Source of the DNA: Paracoccaceae bacterium
GTDB taxonomy: Bacteria; Pseudomonadota; Alphaproteobacteria; Rhodobacterales; Rhodobacteraceae
Reading direction: 5' to 3'
Length of the DNA: 64,000 bases
NCBI GenBank assembly: GCA_018223125.1
Contig: JAAEZA010000006.1
Span: 1 to 64,000 of the forward strand
Shown: one piece after another, positions 11,192 to 13,089 of the stretch
Layout: each line of letters begins with the position of its first letter
Numbering within the stretch: position 1 is the first letter of the stretch
The notes under the pieces: generated by a model
Seen by the model: only the letters and a program-made list of their open reading frames with translations
The model's database searches: none
Told to the model about the DNA's origin: nothing
Made by a program: the position numbers and the translations under genes

Positions 11192-11228
11192 CACGCCCCG
11201 CGATACTATCGCGGGGCGTGTTTTGTTA
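11192..11228 (+). terminator. Intrinsic terminator after carB
   Basis: A perfect 13-bp inverted repeat (CACGCCCCGCGAT / ATCGCGGGGCGTG) with a 3-base loop is followed by TTTTGTT. It separates carB from the GNAT-LuxR pair. Confidence 0.92.
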
Positions 11229-11302: not shown

Positions 11303-11355
11303 AAAATTTGCAGGTAGTTTTGCAGATATAGAACCGCTCAACGTAGGAGAGTATC

Positions 11356-11904
11356 ATGCAAACCTCAGAAACCAGTGTTTCGATGATCAAAGATCTGTCG
11401 GAAATGCAAATAGCCCACGACATCCGCAGACAAGTCTTTGTGATTGAAGGAGAAGAATCAGAAGACGTGGAATTCGACGGCAACGATTTCTGCGCCGCCC
11501 ATCTATTGGCCTATTGGAAAGGCGAACCCGTCGGCACCATGCGTCTGAGGATTGTTTCGGGCAGTGAAGGCGGCACAATCATCTGGGAACGGATGGCTAT
11601 TCTTAAAGACGCCCGTGAGCGCAACCCCTGGATCTTTAGAGCCTTGATGAACAGCGCGCGCCACTATACTGATATTATGGGGCTGAAAAACGTGATCGGA
11701 ATCGTCGAGAACCCGAAGTTGATGCGGTTTTGGCAGATTTACGGTGGCAAAGAGACCGGAGAAGAACCTTTGGAGTTCCGTGGGCATACCTATCGCCCTA
11801 TCCGCCTGACGATCCAGCGGGACGAGCCGCAGGAAGAACTGACACTGCGTCAGGCAATTATGGCGGTCCCCGAGGTTTTTGATGAAACAAGGAAGAATAC
11901 GTGA
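11356..11904 (+). CDS. GNAT-superfamily N-acyltransferase, autoinducer-synthase-like features
   Basis: A 182-residue acyltransferase. Residues 24-80 show IRRQVFV, then E39-x-D41-x-x-D44, LLAYWKGEPVGTMRLR (Arg63) and WER at 77-79. This order (R..VF, ExDxxD, RLR, WE) is the one seen in LuxI-type acyl-homoserine lactone synthases, but it also occurs in ordinary GNAT acetyltransferases of the ElaA/YitF type. The last 45 residues (GHTYRPIRLTIQ onward) are not assigned. It overlaps the next gene, a LuxR-type regulator, by 4 bp (GTGA), so the two are made together. Substrate and acyl donor are unknown; a signal-synthase role is an inference from context. Confidence 0.75.
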   Translation: MQTSETSVSMIKDLSEMQIAHDIRRQVFVIEGEESEDVEFDGNDFCAAHLLAYWKGEPVGTMRLRIVSGSEGGTIIWERMAILKDARERNPWIFRALMNSARHYTDIMGLKNVIGIVENPKLMRFWQIYGGKETGEEPLEFRGHTYRPIRLTIQRDEPQEELTLRQAIMAVPEVFDETRKNT

Positions 11905-12599
11905 CAGTAAGCTTCGCCCTATTGATGGAGCGGCTGTGGCAGTCGGATAGTCCCGAGACCACTCGGGACATAATCCTCAGCCTCGGTTTTAACGGCCTGG
12001 TCTTCCAGCGCTGGTCGCCCGACTATATCGAGAACTGGGAGGGTCGGATCGCCGAGGGCTTTCTGGAGCATTACTACGGTGCGCAACTCGACCAGCATTG
12101 CCCGATTGCCAAGGCCATACACACATGGTCCCGCAGCTACACCTTTACCCAGGCACGCAGCCAGCCAGGGGCGGACACAGAGAACGCACAGCGCGTGGAA
12201 CGGCTGTTCCAGCAGTTCGGCATGCATGACGGAGTCGTCTTGCTGACGGGGCCGAACAATCTGCGCTCCTCAGTCATTCTGACAAGTTCCGGTCCGGTAG
12301 ATAAAGAATTCGAAATGTTTGGCGGGATGCTCTATTTCGCGGCAGACAAGCTGACACGGCAGTTGGGGCCAGACCACCCCCTGCTGACCCATGTCCCCCG
12401 TGAGAACCCAACTCTGTCCGATATGCAGACAAAAATCCTGCAAATGCAGATTGACCATCCGGAGCTGAGCAAGAACGAAATGGCGCTGGCTTTGGGGCTC
12501 TCCCCGAAAACTCTGCATGCGCATCACAAAAAAATTGCCAAAAAGAATGGCGTAACCACTTTTGCAGGTGCTGTAATAAAAAAATTGAAAGAGTCCTGA
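11901..12599 (+). CDS. LuxR-type regulator with autoinducer-binding-like domain
   Basis: A 232-residue protein starting at GTG inside the GNAT stop. Residues about 1-160 resemble the autoinducer-binding domain: Tyr58-Tyr59, Asp64, Pro68 and Trp76 stand where LuxR/TraR proteins have their Tyr, DP and Trp ligand contacts, though DP is split (DQHCP). Residues 171-228 form a GerE-type helix-turn-helix (LSKNEMALALGLSPKTLHAHHKK region). It has Gln where most members have the conserved Glu of LTxRE, and a 2-3 residue insertion before the recognition helices. It probably senses a small ligand, plausibly one made by the coupled GNAT enzyme, and controls genes not identified here. Confidence 0.82.
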   Translation: MTVSFALLMERLWQSDSPETTRDIILSLGFNGLVFQRWSPDYIENWEGRIAEGFLEHYYGAQLDQHCPIAKAIHTWSRSYTFTQARSQPGADTENAQRVERLFQQFGMHDGVVLLTGPNNLRSSVILTSSGPVDKEFEMFGGMLYFAADKLTRQLGPDHPLLTHVPRENPTLSDMQTKILQMQIDHPELSKNEMALALGLSPKTLHAHHKKIAKKNGVTTFAGAVIKKLKES

Positions 12600-12628: not shown

Positions 12629-12667
12629 CAAAAACCCCGGCTGACTTTGCAGGCAGCCGGAGTTTCT
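12629..12667 (+). terminator. Terminator after the LuxR-type gene
   Basis: A perfect 7-bp stem CCGGCTG/CAGCCGG (12637-12643, 12654-12660) extends through ACTCC/T-rich flanks and ends near TTTCTT. The A-run on its left side would also let it work for the leftward XRE gene. Confidence 0.7.
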
Positions 12668-12747: not shown

Positions 12748-13089
12748 TCAGGTGCAGGCTTTGATCAGGCCGACAATCTGGTTTTTGACAGCTTCGTTCG
12801 GGATCTGGTTGATCTGTGTTGCCAGTTCGATTGTGCGTGTGGAAATCTCTTCGATCTCTTGGCCTTCGCCACCGTCAGCGCCATCAAAGAAAAAGGAAAC
12901 CTGAACGCCCAGTGCTTGGGAGACTTCCCACAGACGGCTGGCGCTGATGCGGTTGATGCCGCGCTCGTATTTCTGAAGCTGCTGAAAGCTGATACCCAGC
13001 ATTTCGCTAAGCTTTTGCTGGCTGATACCGCGGGAAGCCCGTGTAAGGCGGATTTTTGTACCAACGTGAACGTCTACTGGATGAGGCAT
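12748..13089 (-). CDS. XRE-family helix-turn-helix regulator
   Basis: A 113-residue DNA-binding protein. Residues about 10-64 are a Cro/C1-type helix-turn-helix with the alphaproteobacterial signature GISQQKLSEMLGISFQQLQK followed by YERGINRISASRL. A C-terminal helix (about 85-112) may dimerise. Such regulators are widespread in Rhizobiales and Rhodobacterales chromosomes and often act in development or stress, so it need not be phage-derived. TAGGAG precedes the ATG, and the 5' leader can fold into a small CCCC/GGGG hairpin. It faces the GNAT-LuxR pair convergently; a functional link is not shown. Confidence 0.88.
   Translation of the reverse strand: MPHPVDVHVGTKIRLTRASRGISQQKLSEMLGISFQQLQKYERGINRISASRLWEVSQALGVQVSFFFDGADGGEGQEIEEISTRTIELATQINQIPNEAVKNQIVGLIKACT

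Follow-up and report, generated by a model that had tools for sequence, protein, structure and literature searches.

Enzymes of the LuxI family carry, according to the accessible part of one account (PMC5539150), a conserved Trp after R..F and the motifs R[LV].PT and E.[ST]R, and LuxR-type receptors line their ligand pocket with residues W57, Y61, D70, P71, W85 and G113 (available text of PMC4414361). Many receptors have no such partner: about 75% of proteobacterial luxR genes are reported to be solos, the functions of most of which are unknown (PMC10413115, in the portion available). The locus described here combines a gene of the LuxR type with a gene for a GNAT-fold enzyme that is not a LuxI. 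No GNAT–LuxR pair of this kind was described among the matches listed in a literature search of partial coverage.

The window, that is, the whole stretch of 64,000 nucleotides that was analysed, contains the following features in this region:

11192..11220, + strand: terminator of carB, which parts carB from the GNAT-luxR pair (-26.5 kcal/mol, z -7.8)
11330..11353, + strand: 24-base tract AGAACCGCTCAACGTAGGAGAGTA directly 5' of the GNAT start, invariant in six loci of the genus
11356..11904, + strand: GNAT-fold acyltransferase of the EFDGND and WE type (ORF with ATG start, 182 aa)
11901..11904, + strand: GTGA overlap of the GNAT gene and luxR, with putative translational coupling
11901..12599, + strand: LuxR-type regulator with autoinducer-receptor architecture and an FYCPFG pocket, F54, Y58, C67, P68, F82, G111 (ORF with GTG start, 232 aa)
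12632..12665, + strand: terminator-like hairpin after luxR, before the convergent XRE gene
12748..13089, - strand: XRE regulator (HTH_3 match), the convergent neighbour in six loci of the genus

The original prediction of a 182-residue GNAT overlapping a LuxR-type gene by GTGA holds, in that both ORFs are real and overlap at 11901-11904; the same 4-base overlap is present in all six loci of the genus. Given the carB terminator on one side and the hairpin after luxR on the other, the GNAT gene and luxR stand as a unit of two genes, flanked by carB and the convergent XRE gene. In the stem of the carB terminator, changes are seen by eye on both sides with pairing retained across the six genomes. 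The 24-base tract holds the ribosome-binding site and perhaps the end of a promoter too. It is invariant in the six genomes where the adjoining upstream DNA has diverged, and it exceeds what a ribosome-binding site needs. Both proteins are under strong purifying selection, with dN/dS values of 0-0.055 for the GNAT (8 of 15 comparisons among the six genomes having a finite dS) and 0.032-0.046 for LuxR (5 of 15). G000 and G295 (window 11356-11901 and locus L032) have the same GNAT protein despite a dS of 0.23, which points to very strong constraint.

Within the genus the intact pair occurs in 6 of 33 genomes (G000, G295, G297, G299, G313 and G321), always in the order GNAT, luxR directly behind and then XRE. 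The GNAT query matched ten of the 33 genomes at E<=1e-5; six matches are full-length with 86-100% identity, and the remaining four are short and to ordinary GNATs. Among named relatives, Amylibacter cionae has the closest GNAT (100% identical), followed by Neptunicoccus sediminis (98%). The neighbouring carB gene was found in 29 of the 33 genomes, and 23 of these 29 loci are without the pair in the flank examined, a count affected by some flanks being cut by contig ends. Conservation of the pair across Rhodobacterales, which had been proposed as a check, was not observed: the genus-level LuxR profile matched 4 of 390 genomes of the order, all of this genus, and a single-protein LuxR query matched 3 of 295 genomes of the family, namely the window genome and two partial matches that cover 120 and 58 of 232 residues in the C-terminal part.

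A different picture emerges in the class. There the genus-level LuxR profile matched 6 of 385 genomes and a wider LuxR profile 7 of the same 385, the window genome being counted both times; these figures are lower bounds, with mostly no more than 7 candidates scored per genome. LuxR is present in 11 of the 14 genomes of family f105. In total 15 LuxR loci outside the genus were located by the LuxR profile alone, 13 of them places in f105 and the others in G865 and G650, and 13 of the 15 have a related GNAT gene immediately 5' of luxR and in the same orientation, in three other families of the class. The two loci devoid of a GNAT are L246 (G997:C2) and L229 (G997:C29), the latter a weak match of 48 bits; the weakest pair is that of G650, at 88 and 92 bits. 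The 4-base overlap recurs in L237, L241, L242, L244 and L249, and the other pairs comprise two larger overlaps, one abutting and five spaced by 9 to about 215 bases, all values based on mechanical ORF starts. The flanking genes vary (carB, ABC transporter genes, an EamA-like transporter and others, named by eye), and several of the f105 loci are closely related, so that the independent contexts number fewer than 13. The GNATs of the 13 distant pairs have 26-54% identity to the window protein. Distances between GNATs correlate with distances between LuxRs at 0.97 over 18 loci, mostly as a result of shared descent. LuxR gave no match in plasmids and the GNAT none in phages. An early reading, in which the pair is confined to one genus, was overturned by these class- and family-level searches. 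Uniqueness of the pair to one genome, which was to have spoken against the original prediction, is not what is found, as 13 of the 15 loci outside the genus keep the adjacency. The adjacency of GNAT and luxR is not due to chance.

The GNAT groups with SACOL1063, YjcF and ElaA by fold and by sequence. Its top Foldseek matches are 5jph, 5jq4, 1q2y and 3efa, which in fold and closest solved structures make it an ElaA/YjcF-type enzyme, and the family GNAT profile matches SACOL1063 at E 9.8e-13. More distant relatives are found next to another type of regulator, with a LysR gene near the GNAT in 65 of 73 loci; in 6 of the 8 misses the GNAT is located within 730 bases of the locus start. No LuxR lies beside the GNAT in any of the 73 (E<=1e-3), the three HTH matches being two LysR genes and one ORF 1.6 kb off. 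A recurring alphaproteobacterial cluster consists of a LysR gene, a gene of about 190 aa termed gene A, and an EFDGND GNAT (L048-L121, e.g. L100:4323-6567). Gene A was seen in 69 of 121 loci, in 38 of them in the same ORF as the GNAT. One separate copy has no Pfam or NCBIfam match at E<=1, and the idea that gene A is a degenerate GNAT was tested and found to be unsupported.

In the original prediction, the GNAT was said to carry motifs in the order found in LuxI enzymes. The residues are indeed present (R24..F28, E39-x-D41-x-x-D44, R63-L-R65 and W77-E78), but their order is not specific to LuxI: R..[VIAT][FY], [ED].D..D and [GA]..R follow one another in 20 of 20 ElaA-like GNATs and 28 of 28 LysR-type relatives, sets gathered by similarity to the window protein, which favours a shared motif order. 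The solved structure SACOL1063 has this order as well. Counted at any position of the protein stretch used, the letters WE are found in 5 of 5 genus members, in 3 of 28 LysR-type and in 0 of 20 ElaA-like GNATs, and among the LuxR-paired GNATs W77 is present in 17 of 18 and E78 in 16 of 18. WE is more distinctive than the R..VF and E-x-D-x-x-D parts of the motif. EFDGND is constant in 33 aligned rows, partly by construction, since EFDGNDFC was one of six scan patterns. The LuxR-paired GNATs were found via LuxR and are free of this search bias; here D41 and D44 are present in 18 of 18, and G42 and N43 in 17 of 18 each. The acetyl-CoA P-loop pattern [QR]..[GA].[GA] is seen in 19 of 20 ElaA-like GNATs, 0 of 5 genus members and 1 of 28 LysR-type relatives. 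Because the pattern is also missing in 27 of the 28 LysR-type relatives, its loss is not special to LuxR-paired GNATs.

The earlier description of the enzyme as not an obvious LuxI is borne out. The window GNAT has no match to PF00765 (LuxI) at E<=1, and none of the 18 LuxR-paired GNATs matches it at E<=0.01. Solved autoinducer synthases are reached by the family GNAT profile only at E 0.92, and a LuxI-type synthase is absent among the best 50 of 1406 fold matches of the GNAT. The LuxI Trp, R[LV].PT and E.[ST]R are each found in 0 of 5 genus members and in 21, 12 and 22 of 22 LuxI rows, the rows (22 of 31 loci tried) having been chosen partly by E.[ST]R and [ED].D.[YFH]D, so that those counts arise by construction. 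In trees, LuxI separates with supports of 100/99 and 100/100 and the GNAT does not fall inside the LuxI branch. The LuxR-paired group lies on one side of a 74/46 branch, and LysR-type and ElaA GNATs form a group at 81/63, in trees whose long branches may mislead; with supports of only 74/46 and 81/63, the attachment of the LuxI branch is left without firm placement. A LuxI identity is ruled out by Pfam, motifs, profile comparison and trees.

The profile of the LuxR-paired GNATs reaches the LysR-type GNATs at E 1.4e-41, ElaA at E 1.1e-20 and LuxI at E 1.7e-8 (score 59.6); a genus-only GNAT profile scores 34.6 against LuxI. Against the LuxI profile the LuxR-paired GNATs score 52-60; in equally large samples, LysR-type GNATs (18 rows) score 31.6-35.7 and ElaA GNATs 32.2-33.6. 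Controls matched for diversity, six sets of 9 LysR-type plus 9 ElaA rows, give 46.2-54.1 and all 48 rows together 50.8, while trimmed LuxR-paired sets give 61.8 (18 rows), 54.0 (10 rows) and 47.7 (7 rows). After these mixed controls the lean of the LuxR-paired GNATs towards LuxI proves to be mostly an effect of diversity, and it is not claimed here. Membership of the FeeM family was also considered. The window GNAT scores 15.2 bits against a FeeM cut-off of 27, FeeM stands at rank 12 in the fold search, and matches are obtained for 6 of 18 LuxR-paired and 6 of 28 LysR-type GNATs; as this does not discriminate between the two groups, FeeM membership was rejected. Matches to exosort_acyl (4 of 18 LuxR-paired vs 2 of 28 LysR-type), to the ElaA model (1 of 18 vs 21 of 28) and to Acetyltransf_1 (11 of 18 vs 26 of 28) were counted in the same sets. 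With FeeM matches similarly frequent, the P-loop loss shared and the LuxI lean a matter of diversity, nothing in the enzyme marks the GNAT as a long-chain acyltransferase.

By fold and family profile, LuxR consists of a ligand-binding domain and a GerE HTH, the architecture of autoinducer receptors. The top Foldseek matches of its model are RhlR, TraR, LasR, QscR and SdiA, with a modest model (mean pLDDT 69, pocket loop 43-72 below 50) that superposes poorly over the whole chain (TM about 0.4) and whose input alignment included canonical LuxR rows. Independently of the model, a profile built from 19 LuxRs of the family matches TraR at E 1.3e-8 over positions 20-228 (TraR residues 25-231). Single proteins are less readily recognised by Pfam, Autoind_bind matching 3 of 19 and GerE 8 of 19 at E<=0.01; the window LuxR lies below both cut-offs (20.8 vs 23 and 17 vs 23.5).

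Aligned without gaps to the canonical LuxR of the same genome, the window LuxR has F54, Y58, C67, P68 and F82 at the pocket positions, and the sixth, G111, was assigned from alignments. WYDPWG thus reads FYCPFG, with three of six positions identical, and the pocket is not of the AHL type. The DP motif that had been thought split is not: Asp is replaced by Cys67, which P68 follows. F54, Y58, C67, D110 and G111 are constant in all 19 LuxRs compared (those of 18 pairs plus L246, with L229 and the G295 copy excluded), even in those that share as little as 21% identity with the window LuxR; P or A occupies position 68, and 17 of the proteins have F at position 82, giving a family motif FYC[P/A]FG. 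The constant Cys in place of a ligand-binding Asp gives the strongest indication that the ligand is unusual. In the HTH, LuxR proteins usually have LT.RE.E.L at the glutamate site, where the window LuxR has LSDMQTKIL; the DNA-binding domain does lack the usual Glu, as predicted. Other genes of the LuxI/LuxR type were seen in these genomes. The window genome has a canonical luxI/luxR on C55 and a second, divergent LuxI of 40 bits at L181:1346-2188 (G000:C65), with sensor-kinase-like genes alongside (by eye). In eight members of the genus (L167-L174), genes for two short LuxR receptors (about 160-260 aa) adjoin each other and are transcribed divergently, in several cases with a LuxI gene next to them.

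The convergent XRE gene at 12748..13089 presumably resembles rhizobial PraR, HTH_3 being the match obtained. XRE genes like that of the window (at least 70 bits) are found in 6 of 13 pair loci outside the genus (157 kb) vs 5 of 74 LysR-type control loci (770 kb); the XRE-bearing loci L238, L239 and L243 are related, so that the six represent about four lineages. Across L236-L245, XRE genes thus occur near GNAT-LuxR pairs at a higher frequency than near the LysR-type relatives, with two back to back in three loci. Of 17 upstream regions, those of the window and L033 contain TTGCAA-like sites at two places close to the start, and four more (L034, L035, L240 and L242) have them in scattered locations. 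Such sites correspond to the PraR consensus, and Rhizobium uses PraR to repress raiR and rhiR, two genes of the LuxR type (both from the accessible text of PMC4149787); in Methylobacterium, a quorum system has a PraR acting downstream of it (PMC10790750, in the part available). No operator common to the 17 upstream regions was found, and inverted repeats are not shared.

We suggest, at about even chances, that GNAT and LuxR belong together as a dedicated enzyme–receptor module: the GNAT would produce or use up a small molecule other than an AHL, and LuxR would sense it. What underlies this suggestion is a conserved, co-directional and mostly overlapping gene pair, purifying selection, a GNAT of the WE subgroup, a receptor architecture and a constantly altered pocket. 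The coupled non-LuxI enzyme–receptor pair of the original prediction is retained and has gained in strength, with adjacency kept over several families and the pocket altered throughout. The adjacency in 6 of 6 genus carriers and in 13 of 15 other LuxR loci amid varied surroundings argues for such a module, as do the constancy of the pocket in all 19 LuxRs, the fold matches to RhlR, TraR and LasR, the profile match to TraR, the occurrence of LysR near most of the wider GNAT family and, mostly reflecting shared descent, the correlated GNAT and LuxR distances. PluR and PauR are precedents of LuxR receptors with an altered motif that bind non-AHL signals (excerpts of PMC4414361). Against it stand the lack of a shared operator among the upstream regions, the two LuxR loci of 15 (L246 and L229) with no neighbouring GNAT, an enzyme with no long-chain acyltransferase mark, the weak Pfam receptor matches and the poor model in the pocket loop.

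In this module the GNAT would acylate or acetylate a small molecule, or remove such a group from it. LuxR would bind that molecule, the product being likelier than the substrate, in its FYC[P/A]FG pocket, with Cys67 standing where AHL receptors use Asp, and the ligand-bound LuxR might regulate its own operon and other genes, possibly jointly with the neighbouring XRE regulator. A regulator also accompanies the GNAT among the LysR-type relatives, which suggests that the molecules handled by these enzymes are ones that regulators sense; given the autoinducer-type receptor, an acylated product is plausible. Only tentatively would we go further and propose a second, LuxI-independent class of acyl-signal synthase and receptor in Alphaproteobacteria. 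Its synthase, a WE-type FDGND GNAT, would make an N-acyl compound other than an AHL; the cognate LuxR would read this compound through the constant-Cys pocket, with thiol chemistry perhaps involved, and a PraR-like repressor would often join the two as a third component.

It is rather unlikely that LuxR hears AHLs or a different signal from another source, such as a LuxI of the same genome, with the GNAT as a mere co-transcribed target, perhaps an acetyltransferase for detoxification or tailoring. All six genus carriers have a LuxI gene above the Pfam cut-off, and CerM of Cereibacter, which has an FYDPWG motif, works in an AHL circuit with CerN (available part of PMC11655674). However, all 19 LuxRs have Cys in place of the pocket Asp, and the equivalent D75 is required even in the non-AHL receptors PluR and PauR (PMC4414361, same excerpts). 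So constant a pairing with one type of enzyme would also be unusual for a mere target.

Coupling by modification rather than by a ligand, with the GNAT acetylating a protein, perhaps LuxR itself or the XRE regulator, is improbable. Acetylation of regulators exists as a protein modification, and the HTH of LuxR includes the lysine-rich HHKKIAKK; the ligand pocket is constant over the family, however, and these lysines are not (HHEKIAKK and RHADIARK also occur). The chance neighbourhood of an ordinary acetyltransferase and a LuxR solo is very improbable: it would fit the finding of LuxR in this genus only in the family and order searches, bar the two partial C-terminal matches, and the missing precedent among the literature matches, but it is contradicted by an adjacency that persists across four families although the flanks differ, and by the repeated 4-base overlaps, and a recent transfer of a single block is disfavoured by the divergence of the GNATs.

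The conserved pairing of a GNAT with a pocket-altered LuxR points to a candidate maker of the ligand as well as to a receptor, so that the ligand can be searched for directly. Should the GNAT make the ligand, acyl signalling through LuxR receptors would reach an enzyme family outside LuxI.

Compared with known systems, the pair has parts in common with several. ElaA, YjcF and SACOL1063 are the nearest solved structures and share R..[VIAT][FY], [ED].D..D and [GA]..R, but the window GNAT is without the P-loop pattern and has FDGND, WE and a partner receptor gene. The EFDGND GNATs near divergent LysR genes in Alphaproteobacteria are the closest by profile and share the EFDGND core and a mostly missing P-loop; their partners, by contrast, are LysR and mostly gene A instead of LuxR, and they mostly have L/FER in place of WER. 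FeeM and the exosortase-associated N-acyl amino acid synthases have the GNAT fold and give weak matches (FeeM 6/18, exosort_acyl 4/18), but the window GNAT is below the FeeM cut-off and the LysR-type controls match too (6/28 and 2/28). PluR and PauR resemble the window LuxR in their changed WYDPWG positions, and their non-AHL signals come from other types of enzyme; according to the accessible text (PMC4414361, PMC10134790) they keep both Tyr and Asp (TYDQxx), whereas the window LuxR keeps Tyr and has Cys for Asp. As in the LuxI/LuxR systems for AHLs, a GNAT-fold enzyme with WE adjoins a two-domain LuxR receptor. Here, in contrast, the enzyme does not match PF00765 and the LuxI Trp, R[LV].PT and E.[ST]R are missing in all five genus members, the receptor has Cys in place of Asp, and the enzyme gene is situated 5' of the receptor gene and mostly overlaps it.
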